Source of the DNA: Paramacrobiotus metropolitanus
Lineage: Eukaryota; Tardigrada; Eutardigrada; Parachela; Macrobiotidae
Reading direction: 5' to 3'
Length of the DNA: 64,000 nt
Assembly (NCBI RefSeq): GCF_019649055.1
Contig: NW_026570239.1
Coordinates: 434,001-498,000 of the forward strand
Shown here piece by piece: positions 3,330-38,205 of the stretch (within the stretch, counting starts at the first letter, position 1; every line of letters begins with the position of its first letter). A program made the translations under genes and the position numbers. The notes below the pieces were generated by a model that was not told the origin of the DNA, made no database searches, and saw nothing but the letters and a program-made list of their open reading frames with translations.

Positions 3330-5463
3330 CCGTCTAATGGCGGCGCAGTTGTCGGAGTGCTCATTAAACCGCGCTTCCGCTGTAATCCACCGGGCCAATC
3401 CGAACACGTCCAACGGAATCTCCACCCACAGCCGCTCAAGCAGCTCATACAGACCCGTCTGCATTTCGAGCATCGTGCCGCGAATGGCGGTGACGTCGGT
3501 AGCCACAGTGCTCTCGTTCTGTTCACCACCGATCCCGCAGAACCGGCAGTTGCGCCAGAGGATGCGCTCCACGGCGGCTGCCGCATCGACACACGTCTTG
3601 GCCAGCAGCTGTACATCCGCGGGGAGACGATAATCACCCAGGTCCCAACAGCAACGATTAGCTACCACCTGAAGAACGCATTAGAGGACGCGCGGCCTAA
3701 AGTTTTACCCTGAATTCTGCACAAATTCCACCGCACTATGCGTATTTACCTGCAACTTTCTCGGTCGATTCCCGTGCAATTCGCTAACGGCGCTGATCAG
3801 GCGCAAGCAGTCACTGAGCTCCTGCAGCCTGAAACGCTGCTTGGCGTTGGTAATGACGACTATCTCCGTGGCGGGGGTTAAGTACCGGATGACGCAGACC
3901 CCCACCGAGGCGGCTGTCGTGCCAACGTTGTCAAAGTGGAGCATCAGGCTTTTTCTGGTGTCATCCTGCTGGATGATCGTATTCCACAGCGGACAGACGC
4001 GGCGATATGTCGGCAGCTCGTTGGTGTCGAAATAGGAGAGAATCTCGCGCAAGAGTTCCGGGGGGAGCGCGCTGAACTTGAGGCGGGAGCTATGTACCGT
4101 GGCGGCACGTAGAGGAACGTTCATATCGGGCTGTGTCCAGTGACCATCGGTGAAAGTCCACCCGGTCTGTAGACGCTTTGGCATCTCCGTTTTGGCCCAT
4201 TCATTCGCCCGCTTCTGTTAATAATATACATGGAAAATCAGATCCGGTGCAGGTCACCGGTATCTCGATGCGTCGGATGGGCAATCGTTGCAGAATGTAT
4301 AATTTTTATTAAGAAATAACCAGCTGCATTGCCAGCCTCCTTAGCGCGTGGCTTCGTGGACAATGGCAGGTGATGGAAGTCAGCTGTGTTTTTCGAAATT
4401 TTACTTTTAAATTATCAATACATAATAATAATTACAATATTCGCCTTCGCAGGAAAACCGATTTTTGCGGTGTGGAAGTGTGAAGCCTACCAGTTTGTAC
4501 CACTAATGTTACATTTGTTTTTTTATTCGTTGTTCTTGTGAAAAAAGAAAAGAAATTTAAAAATCTTCCGAACCATTACTAATCATTATAAAAATAACCC
4601 AGTTTTGAACCGACAAATCTTCCAGATAACCTACAATTTTTATCGAATAATTACTGTTACTGAACGTTCTAAGCATGACAGAATAGGGCGACATATATAT
4701 GTTGGAACAGGTGATTCGTATTATAAGGCCATACCAGTTCTTCCTTCGTAACTGGCATCAGCTTCGTTGGAGTCCAACCCATATTTTGGAGGTACAACAA
4801 GCTCTCGTTGAGTATACTGATGGGGAACGCCGTATAGTTGTGGTTGGTGTCCATCAGCCATTCCCACCACAGACGCCACAACGCCGGTTCCATCACCCGC
4901 CCAGTTCGATACTCGCGCGGCAGGATACACGCCCGCGTGACAAAATCATCCGCCCCGACAACCTTCACGGCCCGCTCCCACCGCCCCAACCGCACCACCA
5001 GGGGGTTGACATATTTCGTCACGACATTCCCATCTATCTCGATGCGGATATAAACGAATTTGTTCCACAGAACCCGGCGCACCAGGAACACCGCCGGATA
5101 CCAGGTCCACGGATGGTCGGCGGCCGTCCGCGCCAGGACCTGGAAGGTGGCCGGGGACGCGGGGTTGTTCAGCACATTGTTGTACTCCGCGTCCCAGTTG
5201 TGGGCCGGGGCGAAACGCTCCTGCTGCGAAGTGAGACAGTGCAGTGCCTTTTTAAACTGCACAAACTGTGAGCGCCGTCCGGGTACGCCAAAGTCCACGA
5301 TCAGACCGCCATGGACGGTGTTGATGACCAGACCGCGCTGGAGAAGTCCTTTGGAATTCACCACATCCACCGCATTCCACTGGTAGATGTCGGTGCCAGG
5401 ATAAATCTCACAGGAAGGCGATGAGTCCGCACAATCAAACGATCGTATTCGGTTTGTGTACAT
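3330..5463 (-). CDS. F-box-like family protein, copy A, 3'-truncated
   Basis: Three exons are clear: 5463-4735 (243 codons), 4214-3750 (155) and 3668-3330 (113), all meeting in phase 0 at GT-AG borders. Exon 1 has WNAVDV and GLIVDFGVPGRRSQFV, resembling a small SH3/Tudor-like barrel (inference). Exon 2 holds the F-box, LPPELLREILSYF to CPLWNTII. Exon 3 has WDLGD and WRNCRFCGIGGEQNE. F-box proteins usually recruit targets to SCF ubiquitin ligases; the target here is unknown. The start is ATG 5463, where the upstream FNTT-M context matches the other copies. The usual fourth exon (YQCEDPR) is not found downstream, where repeat sequence takes over, so the gene is probably truncated at its 3' end or ends differently. 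Confidence 0.7.
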
Positions 5464-6096
5464 TGTCGTATTGAATTCTGTAAATTGTGAGGCTTCCTTA
5501 TAAAGTGCGTATTAATTTCATAATAATCCAAGCTGTATTGCAGACAAAAATGTGTATCCACAAATGCACGACCGCGCTTTGGGCTTACTTTTTCATCTCA
5601 GAGGTGCTAATTTAACAATAAATCAATGTGTAAAGTTCCTAAACATTCTTGAGTTGGTGGCTAATATTTACGTGCATCCATAATATATTCTCTCCAAGTT
5701 GCACAGAGCGTGCTAAATGCGGGCTGAAATTATGTTAGCAATCAGCAGGCTGTCTGCTACTCTGTCCTTATCCAGACTTGCCACTCCGCTGCGTTCAGCT
5801 GACCAGAGGACAGCGAGAAAATGGGCGGAGCTGATACCGATTCAAAGTAGGCTAAGCGAGACAGACAAAGACGCCGGCAATACGAAGCGCTGTCGTTAAG
5901 ATAAACGCCGGGGCTATGCTTTGTCTTTGCTCTCCTTTTTGTGAAACGGAAGAAAGCCCGCAGGTGTGTACTGTGCGAAATGAAGACTGAGGTGGATAGA
6001 AGAGAGGGAGAGAAAGAGAGTAGGAAAAATGAATGACTTCGTGCAATAACTGCACTGACAGTACGAGCATAGAAAAGGATAATACTGTGGTACTGG

Positions 6097-7079: not shown

Positions 7080-7085
7080 GGCGCA
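7080..7085. repeat. Left 6-bp target site duplication, GGCGCA
   Basis: GGCGCA lies directly outside the left end (TGTAGCCGGCAGG) of the large element and recurs at 23737-23742 outside its right end. Removing the element and one copy joins F-box exon 3, which confirms the duplication independently. Confidence 0.9.
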
Positions 7086-8345
7086 TGTAGCCGGCAGGAA
7101 GGTTGACGGGTTGATGGTTGACGTTCAATGAAGGTCATCAACCTTTCTGCCAGAGGTCATCAACCTTCCTGCCAGACGTCATCAACCTTTCTCAAAAGGT
7201 CATCAACCTTTCTGCCAGAAGTCATCAACCTTTCTCAAAAGGTTTGGTTTGATCAATAAAAACCGAAATCAGCTTATGTTAAGCAGCTTTCGCACGAACA
7301 TGAATTCAGCCTAATTCTGGGCACCTGACACCTTCTACGAGCATAGACACCAGTACAGTCGTCTCCCTCCGTCATTTCCCACTACCAATCCAAACCATCT
7401 CGCTCATTGCATTCCAATCATTGCAAAATCCAAAGTCCACGTTTTTGCCAATGTTTGTTTTGCACTTTTGCTTGCACTTTTGTATCACTTCCCATTACAT
7501 TTGTTCTTATATGCGTATTTGCTGTACTACTGTCCACTGCTGTAAAGGGGCACGACCCTCGCACGAAGACAATAAATTTCGTATTCCAAAGCCTTGCGAA
7601 AAACACCTTTAAAATCAAAGCAGCAGACTTCACAGACAATCAGAGATTGCAGACATTGGCAGATCGCTTGAGTTTGCATATACGGGACCAAGTTCAGAGT
7701 CTGAACGTCATACAGTTCTTTGCAGATATGCAGACAGTCCTTTGCAGATGGTCCGCCTTTGCAGTTAACTTAATATTTACGCATGCCCCGGGATAGGACC
7801 ATCGCGAACACTACCTCAAATTTTCTGATTCGTACTATCTAAAAATTTAATTCTTAGCCAACTGCAAGGCTGCCGAGTAGGAGCTCTACAGAAATACGCC
7901 TGTAAGGGCGCATTTGCAGATGTTATTCTGCAACAAAATAACCCCTCACTATTTTTGAGCTCACACGCATTTGCGCTTACGCTCATTACAGCCTGTTAAC
8001 ATTAAAACTGTGCTTGGCAATGGGCAAACGTTTGATTGTGGCAGTGCACCCTGTCGCCAATAGTCAATCAACCTTTCTGTGGCGGCCCTCAACCTTTCTG
8101 TAACGTTATCAAACTTTTTGTAAAAGTCATCCGCCTTTCTTAAAGGTAATCAGCCTTTTTTGAAGGTCATCAACCTTTTTATAAAGGTCATCAACCTTTC
8201 TCTAAAGGTCATCAACCTTTCTTTAAAGGTCATCAACCTTTCTTTAAAGGTCATCAACCTTTCTCTAAAGGTCATCAACCTTTCTCTGAGGGTCATCAAC
8301 CTTTTTCTAAAGGTCATCAATCTATCTGCTTGACATCGTCAGCCT
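7086..8345. repeat. Left terminal inverted repeat with minisatellite
   Basis: Two blocks of GGTCATCAACCTTTCT-type repeats (about 7110-7245 and 8045-8330, roughly 16-22-bp units) flank a unique spacer. The spacer at 7255-7655 is the reverse complement of about 23155-23525 in the right terminus. About 330 bp at roughly 7660-7985 have no counterpart on the right, so this terminus has gained an insertion or the right one lost it. Small frames here (for example 7407-7796) are shadows in repeat sequence. Confidence 0.85.
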
Positions 8346-9900
8346 TTTTGCCGAACGTATACATTATCGCTATGCTTGCTATTCGTCTGTATAAGCTTTC
8401 TTGTACAGCTCTGTATAAGCTTTCTTGAACAGCTTTCCTGTACAGTCATTGCTAGTGACGGAGAGATCAGTACGATAGGAGTAATTAACGTAATAATCTA
8501 TCCTACCGACCTACTCAACGGCAGAGTATGAGCTGATAATCTCAATGTGGCATAGCTAAGCCTACGAATCTACGCGAAGCGAGAACTGCATCTCCGACGA
8601 TAATTTAATTAATAACTCCGAACACTGCCAAACTCGTAATAAGAGAGCTGACGACGTAAAATACTGCCACTCAAGGACTTATATAGACACGGCGCATCCG
8701 TGTAGAAACCAAACCAAAAGTAGATGGTAAATGCTCAACTACACTTACTAGGAAGGTTCAGACTGTCATTGGCACTCTAGAGCGCAGCACTTTACAAGTT
8801 AGTGAAAGAAACGCGGCAGTGTCTTCGCTTTGGTTGCCGGGCTTGCGGCGCTACTCGTTAACTTTACCAGAAACAATTTTGGAAACCTTTCGGAATTCAA
8901 GATTACTGTAGCTGGTTTGATTAAGTGGCACCACAGTTTTTTGTACACCGGAAGCCAACACTTGCAAAGCGATAAATGCTCTAGTTTGATGCTCTTTCAA
9001 ATGGCAGCCACTTTTCTCTTCACTGGGCATACTGCTATTGTCAACAATGTTTGTGCTTTGATTATCCAAGGTGCTGCATTACTGATAGTAAAATATATTG
9101 AATAAGTTTAAAATGATTAGCTTTTGCCATGTTTTAGAAAGGTTTATTCGACAAAACATTTTACACGCAATTCTTCACAAAAATTTAGACAAGATTAGGT
9201 GATGGAACAGGACGATTATTTAAATGCCGGAACAAAATAAGATAAGAGCAAGAACAAAAAACGAATTGGCAGTTGTCAGTCTTTGAACATTAAATTCAGA
9301 TCGGAGAACATCATTACTTTCCAGCTTTGCAGAGATCGCATGCGAACGCCCCCGCTTTTGTGCGCTGCTTGGTCACACAAGCGCGATGAAATTGTTTGAC
9401 AGGACATCCAGGGTAGCGACATTTTACGATGTCCTTTGCCGAAGTCGGAGCCGGAAGTCAACAGATGCAAATAATGGGGAAGCGGTGAACAAACCTTTCT
9501 GGGTTAACACATGGTTCCAAGGCGTTGTTACATGAGGATGAACTCGGAAATGGAAGGATGTGCTTTTTAATGACGCAACCATGTAGGTGCTCTCGCATCT
9601 ATGTAAAAAGCGAAATATTCGCATGAAAGCATTGCGTGATCAGCTTGGTTGCTTGCAGTTGGACCTTGTTAAATTTCAATTTTGAGGAATATTTTTATTT
9701 ATCTGACGTAACATAGCGGAACCAAAAAATTTTACAGCGTAAAGCGAAACAGAAAATACTATTATACTTCTTCCTGGCAGTTATCACCTATTTACATATA
9801 TACTGCAGCAACTGCTAAGAACTGTTTAGCATTGTACGAATATCTGCGCTCCTACCTGACAGCAGTATGTATTTCACAATTATAAGCTAAATAAGTTTTA
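8346..9900. other. Unassigned interior of the large element
   Basis: This lies between the left terminus and the 3' end of the transposase gene. Only short frames are present (for example 8830-9105, +), with no motif I recognise. It probably holds the 3' UTR of the transposase and element filler. Confidence 0.4.
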
Positions 9901-12900
9901 TTAAAATAAATGGGTATTTATCAAGTCACTAACCAGGATACTCACATCAGATCGCACGAATGTAAGCGAGCGTAACTCTTGACCGTAGCAGACTGCTGCA
10001 GCAAACGCCGAAACGTAGATTCCGCAGTCCATCCCATTGGGTTGCTGATCGCAAGGTTGCAGGCGAATCTCGATCTCTGACGATGTTGCGTTAGCGAGTG
10101 CAGCACATAGAGCAATTAGATCAGGATCCTTTGCCTGGCCCATCTCTACCGCGAGACTATCGAAAACATTTACGATGAAAGGCGATCTCGTACCCTCTTC
10201 ACATCCTACTCCTTGCAGCAGAACAAAGTGATTATGGTGAATGTATACGATCTGGAGGAAGCGACGGTCCCGAAAAAACAGAGACTTCCGTGTAGCGGAT
10301 AATGCGTCCTTTTCGTTCAGAGATTCAAGGGATTCCAGTCCATCAATACTGGGAAACTGGGCTTTTAAAATTTCCAGTACCGCCGAAATAATAAACGTTG
10401 TCAATTGCCCTCTTGGGTTACGAATAATAGCTAAGTCGTTTTCAGTTAAATTCAATTCCTTTAAATTGGAACGCACACGAGAAGGGGAACAGTGCTCGGT
10501 CTCTGGTGATCCGTCTTCGGACTTCTCGCCAAGCATCACATCGATCTCCTATAAAAAACGAGTGCTATCTCAACGTGAATAGAGAATTTCTGCGCACTAA
10601 AATATAGTTAGCGCGATTGTTCTCGTAGTTCGTTTTCTTAAAAAATTACGTAGTAACGATGTCCACAGGTGGAAACGCTATTTTCGGCGATTTTGCCAGC
10701 TGCACTTATCTTTTGGTGTTTCTCAAACCAGTGAACATGTCGTACTTCGTTTCGTCTCAACAACTAGTCACTTCTATTATAAATTTTAAGCAACCGATCA
10801 CCGACACCTCGTAGACTACTCGATGGTGAACTGCTGATAAGGTGACAATTTTAATAATGTTTGCAATGGAAGTAAATAGTGATTTTAAAGTTATAACGGT
10901 TTCATAGCTATATCGTTGAGTAACTTAAGGGCGGAGCAAACTTAGAGACCAACATCGTGTTGACTATCGCTAAAAACGAATATTTAAAATTACCGGGTGG
11001 TGAGACGAACCTAGGTACAGTGGAACCTCCCGATCTTGAACACCCACTATATGTAATCTATTTTTCAAGGTTGAAAAGTGTTCAAGGCTAAGAGGTTTCT
11101 GCCAGTGTTTTTCATTGCGCCGGTACGGAAAAGTCTTTTCAAAATTCGGAGATGTTCAAACTCTAAGGTTCAACCGCAGCTTTTCGGCAGCAGTTTTGTG
11201 AGCTAACGCGGCATACTCAAATCGGTAACAAATTTCAGTGAAATAATACGCGATTTCTTACCTTCTGCTTTTGGTAAAAAGCCTTTTGAATAGCCATTTG
11301 CTGGTTATAAAGGTTTGTGGTAGCAGTTTCCAACCTTTCTTTATCGACAATAATTGTGATCTTTTTTGACATAACGGCAGGTTTTCGTGCCGCATGGACA
11401 TAAGGAGGCAAAGAAAAATGGCCGGCTTCCGCGCATTTTTTAAACCAGGTCATTAATGCATCCTTGGAAGCGTACTGAGAAGCCGCAATGGGAGCGGCAG
11501 CTAAACATTCAGCGGCAAACAATACGCTGTACAGTCCCGTACAATCGGGTGCAAGAGGTACGCTTTGGAACTGTATTTCCAGATTGGTCTCTTCGGATCC
11601 AAACAGCTCCCAATATCGTTCAACCATTTCATCACTTAACTGGGAATTGGAAGAATCGTAAACGGTAATTTTTCCCAAATTTGAACACACTGCTAGCAGG
11701 AACAACTCGTCATCAAAACGAATCAGTTGCACCCATCGTCTTCCATTTTCAAGCTCTTTCCTTGCATACTTGAACACTTGTCGGCTTAAGCCTCGGACGT
11801 CAGGATACAAAAATCCGCATACATTTCTGGGTGTGTTATTTGTCATGCAGTGGTAGAACGCCAACACCAGTTCCATTGAATCTTTCATCGTCAAGCTAGT
11901 TAGCTTTTCTGCGGCCACACGCACTGGCTGCTTTCTTGTAGCTCTTGCGTCAGTAACCAATTCAAAAAAGTCAGAATCCACTTCCTTTTTTTTCTTCGGG
12001 ATTTCGGGAAAGTCTTCGTGGTGAGAGTTATGTTTCGCGGAATATACCCGTGCCAGATCAATCACTTCCACATGGCTCGCTACCGATGCAACTGCTGTTT
12101 TCGCTTTTCTTGTCATTTGCCCGTACGGCGGCAAAAGCAGCTGCTTGTCCCGGATGCACTTTTCAAACCATTTCAACAGCTGATGCTCACTGGCATACCG
12201 CTGTTCAGCTATTGGTGATCGCGCTAAAGCTTCCAAAGCGAACGCTATACTTGTCAGAGCTGTATTATTGGAGGGAAAGGGAACGGTATGAAACTCCACT
12301 TCCAAACTGCCTGCATCTGGTCCAAACATCTGCCAGTAAGTGTCCACCATACTATGCGACATTTTAGCGGAATTTGTACAGTCATATACAGTGACCTTTC
12401 CAAGCCGATCACAAACTGCCGCAACGTAACGCCGATCATCACCAAGCAGGATTTGGACCCAGCGTCTACCGTTCATAACGGATTGTCGCAAGTCATAGAA
12501 TGAGCTACGAGGAAGTCCGATGACATCAGAGCGACAAAATGTGCACGCACCCTTCGGAAGAACGTTCTTTAACAGGCGATGTAACCAATCCACAAGGCTG
12601 GGTTCCTCCGATTTACTAAGAGAAACGGCTTCGCCTTCTGACGAGTGTGGAGAATTTGCAACTTGCTTCGAGACGTGAGGAGACGAAACCGCCATTTTTT
12701 TGCTTGTCATCGGTGTTGTGGTTTCGTTGCCGCGCTTGACAGCAACCCTTCCACGATTGCTCAACAGCGATGAAAGTTTTGGGAGCATCGTGGTCAGTTT
12801 TTGCTGAACCTAAAGATGAAGAGAACCAAATCAGGGTATTTATTGCAAATCTGTCACACTGCCAAAAAGACCGCCGGTAGCTATTTTGTCTCGGTTTCAG

Positions 12901-15900
12901 ACTACGCGACGGGAACGAGTTCGGTCATTTCAGTGATTCAATTTTACCCCTACTTGCGTTCTAGTTAAATTGAAATTTAATGGCTACTCAGTTTCAAGAT
13001 TTCGTAAAATATTGAAACCCTAAATGCGTTTGCGCAGTTAGCAGCTGCAACGTTTTTAAAAGTTCGGCTGTGAGAAATAACTGCAGAGTGGTTCAAGTAA
13101 ACATAATTAACTTTAGCACTCTCAAACACTTATCTGCCTCGGTTTATTGCATTCTACGAGTATAGCCAACTGATTGTGTAAGCCGTTTGTGTGCGCGTTT
13201 GCGTCGTTTGTGTACGCTGGTGTGAAACCGTCTGTGCGTGCAACATCGGGTTATGAAAAAAGATGATTACGAAAAGTTTAAACCCAACCAGGTGTGCCAA
13301 AAGTTCCATTAATGACCGGCGTCCTCCAGCGTTTGCTAAAGTCGTACGTAAGGATAGAGGTTGTTGTGACACGAAACAATTTTTCAACTATGTTTTCAAA
13401 CCAAAGAAAACCATACAGCACGTATGCAAGATAACGCGCTGCACAGCTCAGTTTTTTAACTTGTCCGTACTTACCTCAACAAATCATAACACAGGCACCC
13501 TACTGCACTGCACTAGCTGTATACCAGTCAGATGAAAAAGTTGTCTGATTTTGCGTAATGGCGCCGCAGACTGTTGCAAAACACAGCTACAGATATATAG
13601 CATCAAGTAAATACACTTTTTCTCTAAAATCACTATAGGTCAGTCGTCTACACATTTATAATTATTCGATTTTGATATGGATGCTGCATGTGTCCGGCAT
13701 GTTTTGCATATTGGTTTGCCCTGCTAAAAGCGTGTTTCAGTATACAGCGACATATAAATCTAAGCTCAATGTTACCGCATAGGCTTCGGAAACTACCCAT
13801 TTAAAATTTTTTGAATTAATTTAATAAATCGTAAGATATCATGGCATACCTTCACAGGTCCTCTTGAATCCGATTCTTCCGCATCCGTAGCATTTTTGTT
13901 AAGCTGCGCTGATTTCTGTTGTGTTAATAAAACATTTGTTGTTAATTACTGATCAAATACACACGTTTTTGTTTCATTTTTCTTGTGCATTCACATAATC
14001 TTCGCATTAGAACAGTGCTCACTTCTTTTTCGATTGCTTCTCCAATGTCATCGGCTGCTTCCTTTGTTATTGTAACTGGTGGAATCGAATTCTTTATCCG
14101 TCTCACGTGCAGGTCATCGTAACTTTCCAGACATTCCAGCTTGGACGACAGCAAGATATTCTCCACCCACTTCCGCAAGCCTTTAGGGTTGTAGTGCCGC
14201 TTGCAAGGATCTTCGGCAAACACTATCACATCCGCAGCGAATGCCATTGTAAAGAATCCACAGCTAACACCGTCCGACTGTTTCTGAACTGGCATGTAAC
14301 GAACTCGAATTTCTTTGCAACCGTGACCGTAACACCTCCACAGCTGATATTTAAGCCCATCCGTCAACTCCGCACCAAGAGAATCGTAAAGTTGAACTTC
14401 ATCCTCTTCAGCATCCCATTTGGAAAAACAGAAATGATTGACGTCGTTGAAATGTATCTGACAGCAAAGGCGTGCTGTTTTATCAAGTCCTGGAAACCTT
14501 GGTGAAAGCGTTTCCCATGTGTCCAACATTCCCGACACATCTTTGGCATTTTCTTTTATTACAGAGGAAATAAGATTAACGACATCTGGAGAAATGCTAC
14601 CATTATTCTTGATTTGGTCGATTTCGCTTTTTAGCACAAACTGTCCACAGCAAGGAATAGCGCGGTCACCATCGATTACCATTTTCGCAGAATCCGTGCT
14701 GACCTTCGTCTGACCTTTGGAAGTTAAAGCGTCGCTAACTGGCGCAGCGCATCTGTTTCCCTGTCGTAATAATCGATTGTGTAATGCAGAATAAGTTTTG
14801 CAGTTTATATACTGTCTTGGTAAAAGTCGCTTAACGGCCTTCATAAACTAGACCAGAGATAGGGTACGAGAGATTAACACTTGCAGGGGTGTTTTGTTGA
14901 ATCCTGGCATCAATATACGATCTTAAAAGTGCCACCTTTGCGTACGCTAACTAATGCACGATTACCGTATAAGCAATTCAGATTTCGAACTCAGTTATTA
15001 ACCACGCCTGGCAAGTCCCTGACAAGGTAATATTATTTCCCTGGGGATATTCGTGTGAATACATGACGCATATCGTCATTTAGAAAAACATTTGCTCTTT
15101 ATATTCGAAATTTTAATTGGGATATTTGTTGTAGCTATCATTTAACAAATTCGTACACATACATGTTTCAGAACTTAATGTTGTGTGTCTGTTCGCACTT
15201 CAAAGAAGCCGCAGATCGAGCATTTGAGATACCGATCTCCTGCAGCGCTGATTGCGGATATGCTTGTATATATTTTTTCTGATCCTACAAGCTTGCAGAT
15301 GTATAGTTTTAGGATCTTAGAATTTAGAAGTACGCGAAAATTTTAACAATCCGTATGTGATTCTTGTGAACGCAGAACTGAATGTCAAAGTTTCTTTTTC
15401 GCTCAAGTACATGTCGCAGGCCGGCTAGAGTTCACACTTCAATACAGGTCAGCATCTCGGGTGCGCGATGAGCGGCACCTTTGAACGACGCGCGGAAACA
15501 TCATGGGACGTTTTGCAGTACTAACTTTATGAACTACGCCCTTGTTATGTTTGCACAAAGTTGCGCATAGAACGTTTGTCTGCTTATGGGTTTGTGACTC
15601 GGTTCACAAAGAAAAACTGAGCCAGTAAGTCTTCTCCAAATGTCACGGCAAGTTGGTAGATATCCGGTAATCGGTTCTGTGACACCCTCTAGGCGCCGTC
15701 TGAAATTTGATTCTACAATTACATCGTGCCCACAATCGGTGCGGAACAATGAAGCTACGATCCTCACTGTGGTGCCTAGGATTTTGCTATGTATAGTGAA
15801 TGTTTACAGTGTTATGCCGGTACCTTCAGCGCTAGTACCTAGCAAAAATTTCAAAGACCAACCATGTCCACCAAGCGTCACGCCGATGATTACCGGCTTC

Positions 15901-18900
15901 GCTTCCGCTCCATCGCGGTTTTTTCCCTAATATCAGTTGTTCACAATTCTTGGGTTTGTGTTTAAAAATTTCCAGTAAGTTAGTGAGAGCCGAACTGCTT
16001 ACTCAGAGCCGAACTGCGTTCGTTCGTTCTGCCGGTTTTATCAATAATAGTTGCTATTAAGAAAATTCAGTACCTACAGTAAAACGCACCATGTCTTCGC
16101 TTCGCTTGTTTGGCTCCAATTTCGGTTCGCGTTTTGCGTTTTTTGGTACTCTGATATCATCGTTTGGTACAAACTTCAGCGTCGCGCCGTAACGAATTTG
16201 GGCATCACTTGCTCTTGTCGATACAACTGTCGCAGGGCCTTTCAATTTTCAACGACTTTTACCTTGGATTTTATTTCGTTTCACTTTGTCGTAGAAGTAC
16301 ACCCTGTCACCTGTAAATGCAGAATACGGATTGTAAAATTTTATTAACCTGAAACGTTTAGCAACGTTCTCAACTTTTCGAAAACTTTCTGCTGCAAATC
16401 GGAGTTTTAGCGTTAGTGCAGTTAATGTTCCATCACCTGGCTTTAGAATTTCACCCTTCCCGAGATTTCTTTTATCGAAGGCTTTCTTCTGGCGTTGCTG
16501 CTCTTTCTTAATGCCTGCCATTGTATCCGCCTCGACAGCCGCTCTCATTCCATCTAACCGGTCCATGATTGCTTCGCATTCATCGTTTATGACTTGCTCA
16601 ACTGCACTCGGTGGACCTTTCGCAAACAGCTCTATAAAATCGTCTTCTTCTCGTGAGAATTCTTCTCCTGGGTCAAACCGTAGCGCAAAAGTGTGGAACA
16701 ACTCGTGCGGTGAATACTGGGTCGTGGTATGCTTGCTTTGTCGAATCACGAAAAGCCCTTCGTTAATACACTGGTCCCATTCAACTGATCGCTGTTTCGC
16801 AGCCATCTCAATATGCCTAAAAAATTAAAATAACGTGAGCCAAGCTTCAATAGTTGTTCATGCTTGTTCAGTATGTACATGCATCTTCACCAGTAATTTC
16901 ACACTTTAAGTTACCGTTTTATTTCCCTATTGGTGCGTTCAATAATTCCGTTCGAGCGCGGTCGATACGGCCGAATTAAAGAATGTTTAATCCGCAGAGC
17001 CTTGTTTATCGCATCAATATCCTGAAAAAAAGGTGCAAGGTCGAACTTTGTTTCTGCGTATTGTGCTCATAAAAATTCTCTTGTATTTTGTTATATTTTA
17101 GTAGTTTTTTTAATTAGGCTTGATATTTGGTTACGGCCTTTGTGAAATGTACCGTATACCCATGAATGCATTTTACCGAGCTTCTTCCTGTGCGAACCAC
17201 GAGTTTGTTGGTTTCCTTAAGTAATAATGTGTTTTCTTAGGTACAACAATACGCTTCTTTAAGTAAAACACAATGTTCTCTAATGTTCTCTAATACTGTC
17301 AAATTACGTCGAATATTTTGCAAATACTTTACGCTAAGCCTGCACTTGAAAAGGACTGTACAACGTTACAAGTGTAGCGTGCAATTCTCTTCAAGTGCAT
17401 TCTTGGAGTACCGTATTTACAGAGTATTTGACGATGCCGGTATGCAAGCGCAACAGTTTCAAAATTATTCGACAAAGGCCACACCTGCTGTTACATTATC
17501 CAGAAGACCAGTTTTTCCGGCTACTGCATTAGGCAGATACTGAGCGCAGCAGAGAGAACTTTCCGTGAACGTAGACAAATACGGTACGGCGCGGTATGAC
17601 CTAGTATAGTGAAACTGTTTAAGAAGGGCTGGTTTCTTCATGCGATAAGAAGACGCGGTACAGCTACAGCGCTTTGGGTGGAAAAAAATACGGGACGCTG
17701 CTTTAATCGCCTATGGCTCGTTTCGTACCACTCCAAAAATTCGACCCATCATTTTTCGCTTCGTGTTCGGTATTCCTAGTATTCAGTATTCCCGCGTATT
17801 CCACCGGTATTCACTCGTGTGTGCCTTTATTCCGTCGTATCTGCTTCTATCCATTAAGTATCTCTTTACAACCTGCAACGTATTTCGCCAGTATTCCTTC
17901 ATGTTCTGCCTGTATGCCGACTTATCCGCTTCGTATCCCTTAAGTGTTACTCTGCATCGGGCGCTATATTACACGTATTCCACTGGTATTCGTTCGTGTT
18001 TTGCTTGTATTTTCCCGCATTCCCTGGTGTTTTAGTTTTTCTTATGCTTTCTTATGCTTTCTTAAGTTTCCTGGGTTTTCTTATGTTTTTCTTAGTTATT
18101 CATAGAATGCCGGTGGAATGCACGGAATGAGGGGCCGCTGCAGAGAGATACATACCGGATACGGGGCGGATAAGTCGGAATACTGGCAAAACACGAACGA
18201 TTACTGGGCGGGTACGCGGGAATACTAAGAACACGTATCGAAAATAATGGGTCGTTTTTTGGAGTGATACGAAATCGTCTATTTATCGCTTTAATTCGCC
18301 ATAGACGACGATTAGCGACAACGTCCTGTGCAGAACGCGGGACAAAACGATCAGCAATGCACTATGACGACTTTAGAGCGGAACCCAGCGGTAGGAAAAA
18401 TACAAAGCAATGCCGCAGCAGTGTACCGTTTATGGGATCTGGTATGCCAGTCAAATTATTGAACGCATGTGCGTACCGGCTTGTCGATTTCACTCCGGCT
18501 CGTGAAACCCCATTTATTTGGCGTCAGACAGATAACATAGAAACTAAGTCGGGTGTGGCAGGTGGAGAATAAATTATGCATGTAACAGCTAGCTTTGCAA
18601 AACAGAAATAAGCACCGATGAATCTGAAGTAAGTTAAAGGCCGTGCTGGCGCTCTATAACCATGGAGCGGCCGGTACAAACCAGATACGCTACATTAACA
18701 ACATTGAACGTTTTCAACTGGACAATAACTAACCTTATTGCGGAACTCTCCTCCATTATCTGTAATTATCCTTTCAGGAGCCCCATAGCGGCAGTATACA
18801 TTTTCGAATAACGCTGCGGCTACGGTTGCTGCCGACTTATTGGAAATTGCTATGGCTTCGGGATATTTTGTGTAGCAGTCAACAAGCGTTAAGAGGTACC

Positions 18901-19717
18901 GATTTCCCTTTGACGTTACACATTCCATATCAACCAAATCCATTGCTACAAGCCACCAGGCCTTAGCCTTGAGACCAATATGGCGATAAGAGTCGCGTAC
19001 TTTAGTTACTCCCTTGCCCTCCATGTGGCAAAGAGAACAAGAATTGATCTGCGACAATACGTAAACTCGTTGAAACATGAACAGACAAAATACCGAATCA
19101 AACACCACGTAGCGTTGTACAATAGCCCTGAAATTTAATTTTTGATTAGTGTAAATTTTAGATTGCATTTTCTTACGTAGTTCGTGACATCATCTCTCAT
19201 TGTCTTCCAGTAGAATTTTGAGGACAATCGCTCTAACATTCGCTCCCGGCGGAGATGATTGAACCTCCTCAAAAAAGTACCAAATATTTACTGAATTCCG
19301 GGCTATAGCAAATTGGTTCTCTACAGTATTATGACGAACTTTCAAACCGATTTCATCTGTTAAAAGATTCGTTCAAATTTTAAAGGTTTCATGTTGAATT
19401 TTCTGCCAAAAATGTAAAAAAACTTGCACATACTCGTGGCATTCCTTGATAGTTTCCAAACGCTGAGCCACGGTTTCAACGCACAGGCGTTCTTCCTTCT
19501 TCCGTGTTACAAAATAAAGTTTTTCGTTCTTTAACCGGTAATGAACAGCCTGTTTTTTGATAACCGTTTTTTCGCTGTTTGTTAGTCCTGGATAATGGCT
19601 CCGGTGCCTCGGATCAGAACGTAGATAATGTCGCAGAGCCCGAAAGTCTGGGTCAGCATGGTACATGCGATCTGGCAAATCTTCATCGAATTTTGATTGC
19701 TCCACCCGATGACACAT
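9901..19717 (-). CDS. Integrase-type transposase fused to four Ulp1-like domains (one in-frame stop)
   Basis: Proposed exons: 19717-19434, 19267-19177, 19048-18734, 17021-16915, 16816-16437, 16310-16078, 14847-13963, 13915-13850, 12809-11262, 10548-9901. All phases agree, giving 1,519 codons. The N-terminal part has a Zn-binding-like H-x4-H (HERFNH) and CSLC. The integrase core has its first Asp in AMDLVD, second in ITDNGGEF and Glu in NGIIERTNREIK, followed by a GPATVV module. Ulp1-like domains follow. Domain 1 has VNHFCF, QLYDS and VQKQSDGVSCGFF. Domains 2 and 3 are degenerate (RRWVQ, VYD). Domain 4 has HHNHFVLL, NVFDS and DQQPNGMDCGIY. It would cut and join element ends in the nucleus; the protease role is unknown. 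Weak points are the GTGTAT donor at 13962, the 16077-14848 junction, a possible earlier 5' start, and an in-frame TGA at 16251-16249 which implies inactivation unless recoded. Confidence 0.75.
16249..16251 (-). pseudogene. In-frame TGA in the integrase C-terminal module
   Basis: In the exon starting at 16310 the frame reads KIQGKSR, TGA, then KLKGPATVVSTRASDAQ in the same frame. The downstream GP motif is the expected neighbour of the chromo/GPY-like module of Gypsy-type integrases, so the stop interrupts real coding sequence. The only nearby GT...AG pair would leave a 24-nt intron, which is implausibly short. A recent nonsense mutation is the simplest explanation. Confidence 0.7.
17703..18298. 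repeat. Foldback insertion in a transposase intron
   Basis: The left end TTTCGTACCACTCCAAAAA (from about 17725) and right end TTTTTTGGAGTGATACGAAA (ending about 18269) are inverted copies, and extend through a CGACCCAT...ATGGGTCG pair. The inside is a degenerate GTATTCC/GGAATAC array, also inverted. Outside lie near-direct copies of GCTTTAATCGCCTATGG (17700-17716) and GCTTTAATTCGCCATAG (18278-18294), possibly an imperfect target duplication. It lies within the intron 18733-17022, so it is nested in the large element. Confidence 0.6.
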
Positions 19718-20575
19718 TTCTGTGGCTGCTGAATCACTCCCATCTTCTTCAATGTCTTTCGAATCATCGGTACTAGCTACATCGCTGTCAGCAGCTCGCG
19801 CATCTCCAGTTCATTTTGCCAGCTACCAAAAGACATTTCGTGCATACTGTTAGACATTTAAAATGCTTGCATTAATTCACATCGTGTCTTTGATGTCGCA
19901 ATAAGGATACTGGTTCTTCTATATTTTACAATGCTTTATATGAACTCCGACGCAGTTTTACAGTAAAGTTTAGTGCTTATAATGTTTGCCATAATAAAAG
20001 CCTTAATCATGGGAATTGGCGATGTTACCCAGCTTTGCATGTTTACTAATGTTACGTTACAGCCGCGTTGCTTTTAGTAGCCAAAAGCGTAGCAAAAGTC
20101 CTTTATGTCACCGCTAATGCGAAATGCGATGTCCTTTCGTCGGTCACCGCCACGAAATGCACATATGTCCTGCAGCCATAAATATGCATGCCCATGTCAT
20201 TCGTGGTATCCGTTCGTTGGTCACCACAACCAAACCGCACCAAATGCACATGCTTACGGTGGCCGCTATTCCTAACGACATCTATTGGCTACGTACGATC
20301 CTAAAGCGGTAAGATACTGTAGAAAACAGTAGCACAAAAGTGAATTATGCCACCTGGGAAAACTTTCAGGATAGAGACAGAATACGAGTAGAATACGTAA
20401 CAAAAGGGCAGATTCCATGCGGGTTGCATCAACCATGCTTGTATTTTTTTTATTTTTAGTATTCTGCCTACACCGGAACCAGACCAGTACAAGGTACACA
20501 GCCTGAAAAATAATATTTTATTATGTCTTTCGCATACCTTATACGCTCTCCGATAAGAAAAAGTTAAAAACCTTC

Positions 20576-21389
20576 TCATAGGTGTGTGGGATAGGTACTA
20601 GCCTTAGCTTGAATTTTTTTGTCGTTCACCATCAGTTGCCAGTCTCCATAAGGAAGCGCAGTTTTTTGGACAAACAGCCAAAATTCTTTGTACGAGACTG
20701 ATTTAAAAAAGGCTGCGTCGTTAAATGGTGTCATAGTCCTGACAAAACGGGGATACAAGCAATAAATACTGTAGCCATGGAGAACTGTTTACAGTAAAAC
20801 AGGTCAAAAGGGGATACAAAAATCCATTTGTAAAATTATTATTATCCAGCTAATCCTGCAACGCATCGGTCATACAGTTCCCGCAACAAGCGAGTGCACT
20901 TTCCTAGTGTATATGGTAACTTGTCTTTATTTTGCAATTTAGAAGCAGAACGTGTATATGGTAACTTGTCTTTATTTTGCAATTTAGAAGCAGAAACACG
21001 CACGCAAAAGGCCGAGATCTGAACGTAAGTGCGCAGAGGACCACCTGGCTTACCTGTGCAGCTGTTTCATGTGTAGATTTCGGACCATCGTCATTTTTGC
21101 GCGGTAGATTTTTCGCATCTGGCTCCTGTTTCAGAAAATGTTTGGCAATATCCAGTTGAAATGGGTTTGGCACCGGATTGTATCCAACATTCGGCGGAAC
21201 GGGACCGTATGGAAAATTCTGAACACCATGCAAATTGACTGGGTTGTTTACTGACGGAAAATAAAAGGGATAAGGATGGTTCTGCATCGGCAATGGGTAC
21301 TGAGCAGGGGGACCTGTTAATGAAGGAATCATAAACGAACCAGCATTCGCAGAGAAAATATTGGGGTATCCGGAACCAAACGGATACAT
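20576..21389 (-). CDS. Candidate 5' exons of the transposase gene or a separate element gene
   Basis: The frame from ATG 21389 to a clean GTAAGC donor after 21054 encodes a Pro, Asn, Tyr and Gly-rich segment (MYPFGSGYPN..., PPAQYPLPM, PPNVGYNPVPNPF), low complexity and probably disordered. A second open stretch, about 20734-20576, reads MTPFNDAAFFKSVSYKEF and has a plausible TTGTCAG acceptor upstream. The phases of these two pieces do not match, so either an exon is missing or they belong to different products. They lie upstream of, and on the same strand as, the integrase exons, which makes a 5' extension of that gene likely. No enzymatic family is recognised. Confidence 0.4.
20907..20995. 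repeat. Exact tandem duplication of 44-45 bp
   Basis: GTGTATATGGTAACTTGTCT... to ...TTTAGAAGCAGAA occurs at 20907-20951 and again at 20952-20995 with no internal difference seen. It lies just inside the presumed intron after the 21054 donor. The identity points to a very recent duplication. Confidence 0.9.
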
Positions 21390-21874
21390 GGTGTTGAGAG
21401 ATGCCCAAATCGCGCAGACGGATAAGCAAAAGAAATGCTCGCTGGCTTGGAAAGCAGTTACTCAAAGTCTCAAAATTCCACTTTCGCAGCACTCTACCGT
21501 TTTCGAAGACAGAATTGTGCGTTCAGTTTTCCTAACACAAGTCAAGGATGATTGCTGCGGCGTTAATATAGCTACCTACTCATTTGTGCTAACTACCACA
21601 AAATAGGCTGGTGCCTCAAAATGGAAATAATTAGTGCAGACCGCTAGGAATTAGATCGGACTTAAGCCTCGCAACACTATGCCACTATTCACATGCTAAA
21701 GTAAACTACAACGGTCATTTCGAGATTTGTAATCCCTTTAAGCCTGCAGTCGCATTTGTATGTCGTTGCACATCAAAAGAGACTCACTTAGAGTATGAAT
21801 ATGTAATAGCTTCGTTGTGGCTGTAATGATCGGTATCCCATTTTACTAATGACTGACATAATAATTTTTTAACA

Positions 21875-22057
21875 ACATATTTTCACTGCATGCACTGTTG
21901 TCTCACAACTGACAATTTCAAATCTTTTCTGCCAGAATTGCATCCACACTTCTGCTGAAGTCCGGCAAACCGTGGACGGCTCATCCGCCAATCTGCCGAG
22001 CCAACCCGCTAGTGTCGATTTATCTAACAATGACACCATTGAGTTCACACAGGCCCA
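21875..22057 (-). CDS. Candidate short coding exon
   Basis: After a good acceptor (GACTCTCATAG, ending 22058) about 60 codons stay open. They read WACVNSMVSLLDKSTL, then LGRLADEPSTV, then VWMQFWQKRFEIV, with balanced composition and many aromatic residues. It sits upstream of the element's other minus-strand exons, so it could be their first coding exon, perhaps starting at the internal Met. No family match is recognised and the downstream donor is unclear. Confidence 0.3.
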
Positions 22058-22861
22058 CTATGAGAGTCAATGAACGCCGTCACTGCTTCGGCAAAAACGT
22101 GGGTGCAGTTATACTGGTATTTGCTTGCTTACATGTCATCCAACTCTTTACACCTTGCTAATAAAATTTTCCTTCTAAAAATTCTGATTAAGCCCTTCAG
22201 GTAGACAATGAACGCGTCAAATCAATTTGCCAATCAGTTAGCCAGCTGGCTATCTCTACAGATTCGTGCGTCAAACTCCAGCCTATTTCTCTCGTTCACA
22301 CCTCGTTTAAACCTCCCGATGCACATACGAAAAAATGTTAAATGCTTCTAGAAGTTTTTTGGCGCCCAACAAGTTACTGTTCTTAGCGGATGACGTAAAT
22401 TAGAATGCTTTAAGCACCAGAAAACACAATTGGGGTGCTACGCAGAGAACTTACATGCCTGAAGTCTATCAAAACGTAAATGACTCTCAATAATTTTAAG
22501 TTATTTGCCACAAGCACCAATTTGTTTGGTATAAAAAAGCTTCAAAACGGTTTCTCTGCTTTTTGCACTGCAGTCGTGAGGTTTTGCCAAGACGTGTACA
22601 AAAAAACTGCTGGATCTGAATACTTAAGTCAACCAAGCTGATTGAGAACGTGGCTTGACGCGTTTCTCGTCTACCTGTAAGCTCTAATCAAAGTTTTATA
22701 ATCAATTTGATGGGAAAATGAAAAGTGGAGGATGACATGTAGGTAGAGTAATAAACATGTATATACGCCTTACTGCATCCAGTTTTTGGATGGGGTGAGA
22801 CAAAAAGAAAGGTGTTCACTACGTAATGTAAATAGGGATCACTTTTGCCGGAACGGTGGAT

Positions 22862-23736
22862 AACCTTTGTCGAACGGTTGGCGACAATCAACAAAAAGGT
22901 TTATGACCTTTTGAGAAAGGTTGATTACCTCTGGCAGAAAGGTTGATGACCTTTGCAAAAAGGTTGATGACCTTTGCAAAAAGGTTGATGACCTTCAGAG
23001 AAAGGTTGATGATTTTTACAAAAAGCTTTATGGCGTTACAGAAATGTTCAGGGCCGCCACAGAAAGGTTGATTGACTATTGGCAACAAGGCGGCCTGAAA
23101 CAATCAGACGTTTGCCCTTTGACAAGCAGTTTTAATGTTAACAGGCTCTGCGATCTCTGATTATCTGTGACGTCTGCTGCTTTAATTGTAAAGGTGTTTT
23201 TCGCACGGCTTTAGAATAAGAAATTTATTGTCTTCGTGCCCCTTTACAGCAGTGTACAGTGCAGCAAATATGCATATAAGAACAAACGTGATGGGAAGTG
23301 ACGCAAAAGTGCAAGCAAAAGTGCAAAACAAAACATTGACAAAAACGTGGACATGGGATTGTGCAATGATTGGAATGCAGTGAGCGAGATGGCTTGGATT
23401 GGTAGTGGGAAATGACGGAGGGAGACGATTGTGCTGGTGTCCACGCTCGTAGAAGGTGCCCAGAATAAGGCTGAATTCATTTTCGTGCGAAAGCTGCTTA
23501 ACATAAGCTGATTTCGGTTTTTATTGATCAAACCAAACCTTTTGAGAAAGGTTGATGACCTCTGGCAGAAAGGTTGACGACCTTTTGAGAAAGGTTGATG
23601 ACCTTTGGAGAAAGGTTGATGACTTCTGGCAGAAAGGTTGATGACCTTTTGAGAAAGGTTGATGACCTCTGGCAGAAAGGTTGATGACCTTCATTGAACG
23701 TCAACCATCAACCCGTCAACCTTCCTGCCGGCTACA
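22862..23736. repeat. Right terminal inverted repeat with minisatellite
   Basis: It mirrors the left terminus. AAAGGTTGATGACCTTT-type units occur at about 22893-23060 and 23540-23690, around a spacer inverted relative to 7255-7655. It ends in CCTTCCTGCCGGCTACA. Unit edges vary (CTGGCAG, TTTGCAAA and TTTTGAG linkers), so units have diverged while the TTGATGACC core is kept. Confidence 0.85.
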
Positions 23737-23742
23737 GGCGCA
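23737..23742. repeat. Right 6-bp target site duplication, GGCGCA
   Basis: It is identical to 7080-7085 and directly abuts the right end of the large element. It lies in the codons for the family's SDxCA stretch in F-box exon 3 (minus strand, TGCGCC). Confidence 0.9.
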
Positions 23743-29923: not shown

Positions 29924-31895
29924 GATTGTATAACATTTCACAACCCGACATTTCATGACGTAACGTTTCATGGCGTAACAATTCACAACCTGGACTTTTC
30001 ACAACCGTAACATTTCGCAACTCAGACTTTTCACAACCATAACAATTCACAACCCAGACTTTTCACAACCGTAACATTTCGTAACCAGGACATTTCACAA
30101 CCGTGACATTTAGATCCGCTTTCCAAATCACGGATGTAAAGCCGAATATCTTTATGGAAAGTGCCTCGGCTTGAACACTGTAATTAGTTGGCATGGCTTG
30201 CGGTTGATGCCGCACATAATTTTTATTCACATTCAGTATAATATTATTGCTTCTTGTGGTACATTCGGTTATCTAGTTTTTTTGTCCTGTCCTGACCTCG
30301 CCCGTTCTGACGTTTGGATTGCAGATGGCACCTTCAAAACCTCACCAAAACATTTTCGACAAATTTATACTATTCACGGTTCCGTATGCGGCAAAATGTT
30401 TCCGTTGGTCTATGTGTTAATTGGCGGGAAGTGTATGGATTTATACCGGAAAGTGTTCCAGGCCTTGTACGATTCCTTAGCAAAACTGTGTGAAGACGGT
30501 CAAGACCCATCGGAACCGGCTTATATGCTCATCGATTTTGAACAAGCGGCATGGACAGCCTTTAGGAGAATCTTTCGCAAAACAACTGTTCAAGGTGAGC
30601 GTAAAAACAAAAATAAATTTGCAGTGAAAAACAGCGTACATTGTTTTGTTTAGATTAAGATTTTGAATGAAAATTTTGGCCTTACTTTACGCAGTGTAAG
30701 CACATTTCGGTATAAAATTATGAACGTTTTTACAGCCAACCAAAAATAACCGCATGGTATTTCATTTAGGTTGCCTTTTCCATTTTGGTCAAAACGTGTA
30801 CAAGCGTATCTTGAAGTACGGATTCAGCGAACGATACATTTCGGATTTGCAGTTTAATACGCAATGCAAAATGTTGTTGGCATTGGCATTTGTTCCTGTG
30901 GACGACGTGGTCAAGGTTTACGAAACTTTCATCCAGCATCCGGAATGCGTTCTTGAAAAGGATAGGAAATTAATCATGTATTTCGAGAGAGTTTATATCG
31001 GTCAGACAGTGAAAACCAGAAAAGGACAGGGGCGGAGGCCACCGTGTTTTTCGATCGCATTTTGGAACTGTCATAACCGTCTGCTTGGTGGAGTACAAAG
31101 GACCACCAACAACGCCAAAGGATGGCACAACGGTTATGCAACATCAAGCGGATCTGTCATACCGGATATCTACACATTTTTCGGCAAATTGCAATTGGAG
31201 CAGAATTTACAAGAAGGTCGTATTGGCAAGCTGAAAAAAGGTGAAAAACCGGAGCCACAGAGACGAGAGTTCAAAGAGCTGACTGAGCGGTTGATGGCGG
31301 TTGCTGTTATGTACAACGATATGGATCCATTGGAGTATTTGGAAAACATCAGCAGGAACGTGGAGATGTCTTGGAAAGATGGTGAGGACGAATCGGATTC
31401 GGATGGTTCGGAAGATTGGCGTTGTGGGAAAGCATGCTGTATAGGGCCTGTGGATTTTGCACTGTAATGATGGGTTTAACTAACAAACTGCCGGCTTATA
31501 AATATATCACTACTATATATTATTTATTCTTGTTGAAAAATTTAAATAATTCAAATTTTTTTGTAAATGCAAATTATTTGAGTAATTTGCGGTGTTACCG
31601 TAACCGCCAAGTCGTAGCTACAAGTCATCGATCAATGATGATAAAATCTATTTCACTGTTGACTTTCACTAATTCGAAATGAGAAATAGATGGCTAAAAT
31701 TATTTGTGGAACGCTGTGGTCATGAAATGTTACGGTTGTGAAATGTTGCGGACATGAAATGTTACGGTTGTGAAAAGTTGCGGTCATGAAATGTTACAGT
31801 TGTGAAACGTTGCGGTCATGAAACGTTACGGTCATGAAATATACGTTGTGAAACGTTACGTTGTGAAATGTCGAGTTATGAAATGTCGTGTAACG
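29924..31895 (+). mobile_element. Mutator-like (MULE) transposon, 1.97 kb
   Basis: It is flanked by the 8-bp duplication TGTTTGAG (29916-29923 and 31896-31903), the size expected for Mutator elements. Both ends are arrays of about 20-bp units of the type CATTTCACAACCGTAA, at roughly 29935-30110 and, inverted, 31715-31890. The left start GATTGTATAACATTTC pairs imperfectly with the right end. A MULE-type transposase fragment lies between. The short total length and missing N-terminal coding region suggest an internally deleted, non-autonomous copy. Confidence 0.85.
30207..31467 (+). pseudogene. MULE transposase, N-terminally truncated
   Basis: Two exons are proposed: open up to 30594, then 30770-31467, with a GTGAGC donor and TTTAG acceptor in matching phase, restoring VQGCLFHFGQNVYKR. 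MULE-family marks in order are the first Asp in VWIADGTF, the second in MLIDFEQA, the CxxH (GCLFHF) and the region RTTNNAKGWHN. In related transposases this last motif usually reads NNxxEGWH, so the third acidic residue appears replaced by Lys in a version one residue shorter. The N-terminal DNA-binding region (often FLYWCH or WRKY-like) is missing. ATG 30207 is only the first Met in the frame. The protein is probably inactive. Confidence 0.75.
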
Positions 31896-31906
31896 TGTTT
31901 GAGTAC

Positions 31907-35914: not shown

Positions 35915-36052
35915 CGTCGTATTAAAAGCGAACCATGCTTCACAATGTGATACTAAAGAAGGCGGTTCAAGATTATAAATAAAAAAAAAACAATTCGGAC
36001 TTGGCTCCAACAAAAAACAGTGTGCATTAAACATTAAAAAAGCGTCAACCTT

Positions 36053-36709: not shown

Positions 36710-38205
36710 CTATGGGCACGCGACGGGAACACCCGATGTCTTGCCCGCCTCGGTAATCCCACAGTATATCAAGCTCTTTCATCATGGGTTCCGTAATAAG
36801 AATAACGTAGTATGCGAAGCGGTAACAATATCTATTACGACTTTTATTATTCTGATTTTGGCGTGAACTGTCGCGGTAATAAACAAGCACACCAACTTGT
36901 AGAATTGTATTCATTTGACAAAAGGGGAAGCGAAGCTGTGTCCCGGATATAAAAACTAAATAGCATAGGTATTGCCGACGATTGGTGCACAGAAACTCAA
37001 CAGGTGCCAAAGATGTCCATACTACCTTATTACCTTAAATATGCAATAATGCATGTAATAAAAGACTGGGAGAATAAATATCTTCATAGACGAACGCATG
37101 TGCAGTAGCCGAGCACAACCATTACCACTAGATGCTTCAAGATCGCTTTTGTATGAAATAAAGAAATTATTTAAAATTAGAATAAATGTTTATCGAAACA
37201 ATTTCAAGCGAAGTAAATGAAAGGTTTAACAAAGGACAATAAACTCGCAAGTTAAACTAGTCAATAAACTAGTTAGGAACTCGTTTGTTCTAATTACTAA
37301 TATCTCAAAATTTAGGTGTTTTGAAAAAGTATATGTAAAATTATTTTCTTTAAGTTTCGAATCTCTTTGAATCCAATTTCCATCTACATACGATAAAGGA
37401 CTACGATAAATTTTGTTTCTCGAAGACACTCTAATTGTAGTGTTATACAGTTGTGCAGTATTTGCAGTCCACTGAATTTATTTGTGGTTACTGAAGGATG
37501 GAAAATATTTAAACGCATTTCATTTCGTTAGATCTTGCCCCAGCCCCCAAGTTAAGAATAATATCGCTCTTGTTAATTACGTACGACTACGGTATGAGTG
37601 CACAAACAATCCGGCTGGTTTGGCCGGTCCCTGTCCGGATCAGACAGGGAAAATAGCACAGGCATGCCGATTTATAGTCTCCAGGAAATTATCACCGCAG
37701 TACCGCACTGGATGTTGCGCCTATTGAAGGCTGAATGGGTGGAATTGATTACTGCGGATTTCCTTCTTCTCCCGTCCTCTCACTGCCGACTAATAAGCTG
37801 CAGTTGTGCCCTCCGGGGATTAATAATCGCTCAGTGGGCAACCAACTGCGCTGTTTTTGTTCTGTGTGTAACCGTACTCGATCGTATCGAATATACTGTA
37901 GCCAGCCCGAGCCAGAGCGACGTCGCCGCAGGCGTATAATCTGAAAACTATATCATTCTAATATACGATCCTACAGAAAATCTCAGCGTTGAAGAGAAAC
38001 GGATGCCGCACAGTATGTATATAATCAGCAGCCGGCGATTGCGAGCGTCAGGCATGGGCTTCTAGTTGACAGTGGCTTGACAGTACACAGTAAGCTGAAT
38101 TCAGCAATCGCAAAGTACTGTTATTCCGTGCCAGTGGTTAGTAATGGTTGCAGCATAACTTCATAAGCAGTCAAATAAACCCTATTTTTGGCATTTAATT
38201 CGACG
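36710..38205. other. Spacer between divergent copies D and F
   Basis: Copies D (-) and F (+) point away from each other, with this stretch and 35915-36709 between them. No gene is supported. Frames at 37482-37944 lack motifs. The 5' flank of F carries the inverted copy of the shared motif at 38097-38115. Confidence 0.45.

Follow-up and report, generated by a model that had tools for sequence, protein, structure and literature searches.

Ginger1 elements, which encode a Gypsy-type integrase, were described by Bao, Kapitonov and Jurka (2010, PMC2836005). According to that paper they are 2.6-7 kb long, with terminal inverted repeats (TIRs) of 40-270 bp and one transposase of 500-800 amino acids (aa) carrying an Ulp1 or OTU protease and at times a PHD finger. 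The 112 Hydra Ginger1 elements gave 4-bp target duplications, CCGG in 75% and CCGT/ACGG in 24%, and no Ginger1 in its Table 1 exceeds 7.1 kb or has a TIR longer than 270 bp. A second paper (PMC10045372) takes duplication length to indicate the superfamily of a transposon and gives duplications of 4 bp in Ginger1, 4 or 5 bp in Ginger2 and 6 bp in Polinton; IS3EU and GingerRoot usually duplicate 6 bp according to the same source, have no HHCC and end in TA..TA or, occasionally in GingerRoot, in TG..CA. These descriptions are compared here with an element at positions 7086-23736 (16.65 kb; 16.7 kb rounded) of a 64,000-nucleotide stretch of the tardigrade Paramacrobiotus metropolitanus genome (contig NW_026570239.1, positions 434,001 to 498,000; this whole stretch is called the window below). 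It is a TIR transposon, and very probably a DNA transposon from a lineage related to Ginger1 that most likely moves by cut-and-paste and is not a Polinton.

Termini and target duplications

The element opens with TGTAGCCGGCAGG at 7086 and closes with the reverse complement of TGTAGCCGGCAGG at 23736. The first-pass annotation had called the inverted ends identical, which holds for TGTAGCCGGCAGG itself, but the outer 90 bp are 98% complementary and so fall short of full complementarity. The target duplication GGCGCA (no strand) was found on both sides as annotated, at 7080..7085 and 23737..23742. The left terminus (7086..8347, + strand) begins with the TGTAGCCGGCAGG end and contains 22-bp tandem units at 7132-7235 and an inner 21-bp tandem array at 8067-8327; the right one (22836..23736, - strand) runs in the inverse orientation, is shorter and has tandem arrays starting at 22836, chiefly at 22891-23032 and 23537-23691. 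The inverted arms lie within 7086-8347 (~1.26 kb) and ~22850-23736 (~0.9 kb) and are piecewise 80-98% complementary, and both termini carry 21/22-bp tandem units, in agreement with the earlier description of repeat-bearing termini of ~0.9-1.26 kb. When the end motif was compared with the array units, the observed score was reached in 4/5000 shuffles for the 22-bp units of the element's family (family A, defined below), in 101/5000 for its inner 21-bp units and in 0/5000 for a sister family (family B). Elsewhere in the window, a single degenerate match to the element end (<=5 mismatches) is present at 58025, and a second TIR-like element at 29930-31900 has the same repeat-in-ends arrangement: each of its termini holds 16/32-bp tandem units, and between them, by eye, lies a MULE-like open reading frame (ORF).

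The host assembly (169.8 Mb, 533 contigs; C-numbers name places in it) was searched for other copies with the element end, as proposed in the first-pass annotation. The 20-bp end pattern TGTAGCCGGCAGGAAGGTTG gave 115 + 118 = 233 matches at <=2 mismatches; the reversed pattern, used as a control, gave 0 + 0. The window element and the relatives sharing its ends constitute family A, and the sister family at C245 is family B. Thirty-eight family A end pairings were examined, two of which have a right end in common and some of which are probably false pairs. The duplication length, whose tabulation had also been proposed, was exactly 6 bp in 26/38 pairings and 6 bp with a single mismatch in 5/38; no 4-bp CCGG duplications were present among the 38. 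The target consensus of the 26 exact duplications is NRCGYN, with C at position 3 in 26, G at position 4 in 24 (A in 2), a purine at position 2 in 21 and a pyrimidine at position 5 in 21. The chance of a central CG in 24/26 is 1.2e-28 at the 5.4% CpG background of the host part of the window. Three of the 5 one-mismatch pairs show a G/A difference at position 4, matching CpG decay.

Family B at C245 is 8.9 kb long, with ends TGTGACCGGCA, and its inverted termini of ~950 bp are 96% alike and contain tandem units of 42 bp. The 5' end is TGTAG in family A and TGTGA in family B, both of the TGTNR form of Ginger1, and TGT..CCGGCA at the end is common to the two families. Eleven family B pairings were examined and two further likely pairs were left out; the 6-bp duplication was exact in 6/11 and had one mismatch in 3/11. 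The central CG was present in 5/6 exact duplications, and all three mismatches fall in it. Family B codes for an integrase exon 37% identical to that of family A, one Ulp1 and a PHD-like finger; its Pfam scores were just under cut-off for rve (32.3 of 32.6 bits) and Peptidase_C48 (20.2 of 20.7), and its PHD match was also below the cut-off.

Integrase matches of >=66% were found at 5 loci including that of the window, versus the 233 end matches. The relatives of the integrase exon in the genome comprise four at 66-70%, then five near 38%, then weaker matches, mostly taken to be Gypsy. Two miniature copies, C8:1219669-1219795 (127 bp) and C31:128112-128185 (74 bp), consist of barely two ends and have exact 6-bp duplications.

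A gene joining an integrase to Ulp1-like units

The window copy and a second full-length copy at C78 (C78:365914-383391, 17,478 bp, nested insertions included, duplication ATCGGT) have a 12-exon gene in common, in the order integrase, Ulp1, two Ulp1-like units, Ulp1, PHD-like finger. At the nucleotide level the two copies match in eight blocks (74-82% identity), which fall on exons. All ten introns from E2 to E11 are of the GT-AG type in either copy, with phases that fit, and some exon ends are slightly shifted between the copies.

In the window the gene is on the - strand. Exon E1 (21054..21389) encodes an N-terminal Pro/Tyr-rich stretch from ATG that is conserved in C78, and its joining to E2 is provisional. 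Exons E2-E7 (16090..19768; 19768-19434, with a provisional 5' start, 19267-19177, 19048-18734, 17021-16915, 16816-16437 and 16310-16090) encode the integrase, composed of a YPYY-like stretch, an H2C2 zinc finger, a DD35E core and a GPY/F-like end. The first Ulp1-like protease, Ulp1a, is encoded by E8 and E8b (14760-14023 and 13915-13850) and the second, Ulp1b, by E10 (9946..10548), each with a His-Asp-Gln-Cys pattern. Two tandem Ulp1-like units that keep Asp and, by eye, miss the catalytic His and Cys make up E9 (11262..12809), and E11 (9314..9598) provides a PHD-like C4HC3 finger and the final stop. The DD35E spacing, the GPY/F-like end, the YPYY-like stretch, the His-Asp-Gln-Cys patterns and the PHD-like cysteines are by-eye readings of the spliced chains.

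The predicted chain comprises ~1,570 residues without E1 and ~1,680 with it. Under predicted splicing, the C78 chain E2-E11 has 1,566 residues and 0 premature stops. The window copy is probably no longer autonomous because its chain contains two premature stops, one in E7 and one in E11. The ratio of nonsynonymous to synonymous substitution rates (dN/dS) between the two copies is 0.17 overall (integrase 0.10, Ulp1a 0.26, E9 0.21, Ulp1b 0.17, PHD-like finger 0.17), and judged by this ratio the family A gene is under purifying selection.

Pfam recognised Integrase_H2C2 (58.7 bits) and rve (59.2 bits) in the C78 chain, with Peptidase_C48 in the same chain; in the window itself rve, the integrase core, and one Ulp1, the Peptidase_C48 of Ulp1b, reached the cut-offs. 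The Gypsy-type integrase and the Ulp1 proteases that had been read from the window lie in one exon chain. The best PDB sequence match of the Ulp1b profile was yeast Ulp1 (1euv), a weak one (E 0.0068). Ulp1a had no Pfam match above cut-off and matched the Ulp1b profile with E 9.5e-7 and the second E9 unit with a BLAST E of 7.5e-7 (composition correction off). Between the two E9 units the likeness is 40-42%, and in profile comparisons E9 gave weak matches to both Ulp1a (probability 32%, E 4.7e-4) and Ulp1b (probability 7%, E 0.0051). The predicted structure of E9, of low confidence (mean predicted local distance difference test, pLDDT, 49.8), gave Foldseek matches led by I7L and SENP proteases and is supportive at most; that of Ulp1a (mean pLDDT 33) was useless. 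The Pfam PHD match of E11 was weak and below cut-off, and NCBIfam was uninformative for the three proteins of the window and the one of family B that were compared with it. The relative at C11 has a single E9-type unit in the stretch read, so the tandem E9 pair may be a later duplication. At C43:631893-634964 a diverged E9-like tandem (34%) is accompanied by Ulp1b (61%), with no integrase match nearby among the matches listed; this locus may be either an element that has diverged or a gene that has been domesticated.

Among other large end pairings, a 13.7-kb copy at C19 with the duplication GGCGCA contains the same gene from the E5 region onward (its first 3.9 kb lie outside the stretch read). 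The C19 and C78 copies are ~98% alike in DNA, with differing insertions at one place between E9 and E10. A 27-kb pairing at C94 is flanked by GGCGCA/GGCGCG. The 17.7-kb copy C22:1174173-1191871 (duplication CGCGCA) owes its length largely to Gypsy-like coding DNA inside the ends, and was rejected as a carrier of extra genes. This copy is one case of the kind of composite in which the termini of a short non-autonomous element come to surround unrelated DNA by nested insertion. For the window element itself such an origin is so improbable as to be nearly negligible, since the window and C78 copies stand at different sites with different duplications and yet hold the same gene within similar termini, and the C19 copy has this gene too.

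Relationship to Polinton and Ginger1

A tree was prepared from 42 integrase cores (184 columns); it has long branches, and its row labels were assigned from the listed domains, so that seven 'Gypsy' rows without a listed reverse transcriptase (P0002, P0003, P0004, P0005, P0009, P0010 and P0012) could be otherwise. Support was 100/99 for family A, 100/99 for family B and 98/90 for A+B, next to which stands a protein of Ancylostoma with no reverse transcriptase among its listed domains (92/76). The tree, with no named Ginger1 sequence among its rows, shows A and B as one lineage apart from the rows sampled and says nothing on the position of Ginger1. Protein searches returned 19 and 81 proteins, with no Ulp1 domain in any Pfam listing and none named Ginger1; they scored each time the ~8,000 candidates sharing most words, among which intron-bearing eukaryotic genes may be under-represented.

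With Polinton/Maverick the element shares the 6-bp duplication, a length of >15 kb in two full family A copies, long repeat-bearing termini and the same integrase fold. Two Polinton-type rows join A+B in the tree after the Ancylostoma protein, with weak support (80/87), and A + B + Polinton as one clade is not rejected by the approximately unbiased test (p-AU 0.217). It is nevertheless very improbable that the element is a degenerate Polinton/Maverick, or a Ginger-Polinton bridge, that is without or has lost the polymerase, ATPase and capsid genes. The first-pass annotation had seen no such frames, and no PolB, ATPase or capsid Pfam family was matched in 23/23 ORFs of >=100 aa and two shorter ones of the window element or in 23/23 ORFs of >=100 aa of the C78 copy, although a diverged capsid could escape detection, as the capsid of a host Polinton at C53 went unrecognised by Pfam. 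The integrase core and Peptidase_C48 were the only matches at or close to cut-off in the ORFs of these two copies, which hold the same gene. PF03175 (PolB) gave 169 matches in the genome, none of them in the window element or C78 among the matches listed. The grounds that the first-pass annotation had named against its own reading, namely 4-bp CCGG duplications in other copies and PolB or ATPase genes in a full-length relative, were found neither in the 38 pairings nor in C78. The host genome has separate Polintons with PolB; the one read, at C53, also has an A32-like ATPase (22.6 of 22.8 bits) and an integrase in which Pfam found no zinc finger. Polinton integrases are without the H2C2 zinc finger according to PMC2836005 and PMC10045372, whereas the chain described here has one. 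Moreover, family B is 8.9 kb long, the targets are CG-centred and many copies are short. Of the two possibilities raised at first, a separate lineage or a bridge to Polinton, the bridge was rejected on the missing PolB, ATPase and capsid families and the H2C2 zinc finger present, and the separate lineage is the one that agrees with the tree and the duplications.

The features in common with Ginger1, as described in PMC2836005, are the Gypsy-type integrase, H2C2, the DDE core, the C-terminal Ulp1, TGTNR ends, introns and CG at the target centre, on which CCGG is likewise centred; by eye the chains also seem to have the GPY/F-like end, the YPYY-like stretch and a PHD-like finger (PHD being present in some Ginger1). 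The element differs from the Ginger1 of that source in duplicating 6 bp and not 4 bp, in its TIRs, which span 0.9-1.26 kb and hold tandem arrays (40-270 bp in Ginger1), in a length of 8.9 kb (B) to 17.5 kb (A, nested insertions included) against 2.6-7 kb and in ~1,570-1,680 predicted residues against 500-800; family A differs also in its four Ulp1-like units. With Ginger1 set by its published description, the element fits it in its workings and fails it on duplication, TIR, length and protein size. On the strength of the common traits, a plain Ginger1 element, whose 6-bp duplications and long termini would be Ginger1 variation yet to be tabulated, can be entertained as a tentative possibility, against which stand the 4-bp duplications of the 112 Hydra elements, the sizes in Table 1 and the 4 bp stated in PMC10045372. 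Literature searches recognised no Ginger element with a 6-bp duplication. IS3EU and GingerRoot are alike in their 6-bp duplications and integrase-type transposase and different, according to PMC10045372, in their mostly TA..TA ends without HHCC, the present element having TG..CA ends and H2C2. Ginger2/TDD, an integrase-type DNA transposon that also has H2C2 and TGTNR ends, differs, according to PMC2836005, by 4- or 5-bp duplications, an AT-rich target and no GPY/F or YPYY.

Families A and B are supported as a separate lineage near Ginger1, because they group together (98/90), both make 6-bp CG-centred duplications and both have long repeat-bearing termini. Chances are about even that they represent a Ginger group of their own, the third, or else a new superfamily of integrase-type DNA transposons, in which the CG-centred target and protein plan of Ginger1 were kept, the strand-transfer spacing went from 4 to 6 bp and, in family A, the Ulp1 module came to be present four times (two without catalytic residues) within a single transposase of ~1,680 residues.

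Besides the divergence from Ginger1 as published in PMC2836005 and the tree results for the Polinton-type rows and clade, several observations weigh against a cut-and-paste transposon related to Ginger1. Seven of the 38 family A pairings are without a 6-bp duplication (one has a 5-bp match and six no match of >=4 bp), as are 2/11 of family B, and the one-mismatch pair C19:4204 can equally be read as an exact 4-bp CACG. The GPY/F, YPYY, protease triads and PHD-like finger are based on by-eye motifs or sub-cut-off matches, and the integrase tree has no Ginger1 reference. Neither an excision product nor a clean empty site turned up: in the sole comparison, of C78 with the near-identical C19, the two have different insertions at the same place.

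Proposed mechanism, genomic setting and implications

In the copies, TG..CA ends are seen joined to a palindromic target centred on CG (NRCGYN), of which 6 bp are duplicated; from this, strand transfer 6 bp apart would follow. The DDE integrase-type transposase may bind the terminal sequence together with its degenerate array copies and then cut and join, the tandem arrays serving as iterated transposase-binding sites. Ulp1a and Ulp1b, in which the pattern is intact, could strip SUMO from host proteins of repair or chromatin, the E9 units lacking catalytic residues could hold SUMO or a partner, and the PHD-like finger could read histone tails. A few copies with the gene would serve the many short ones in which the termini are kept.

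The window also contains a 427-aa ORF at 54054-55337 that resembles, by eye, a PIF/Harbinger-type transposase. Four ORFs (4669-5511, 35141-36052, 38179-38991 and 60757-61575) appear related by eye as a local multigene family, and the last of them has 54% identity with a protein of Paramacrobiotus metropolitanus.

With these results a tempting link between Ginger and Polinton is removed. Families A and B combine a Ginger1-like protein and a CG-centred target with a 6-bp spacing; apparently the spacing can shift without affecting the centre of the target. PMC2836005 left open the role of SUMO proteases for DNA transposons, and the repeated Ulp1 units of family A, partly inactive by motif, constitute a natural test of that role.

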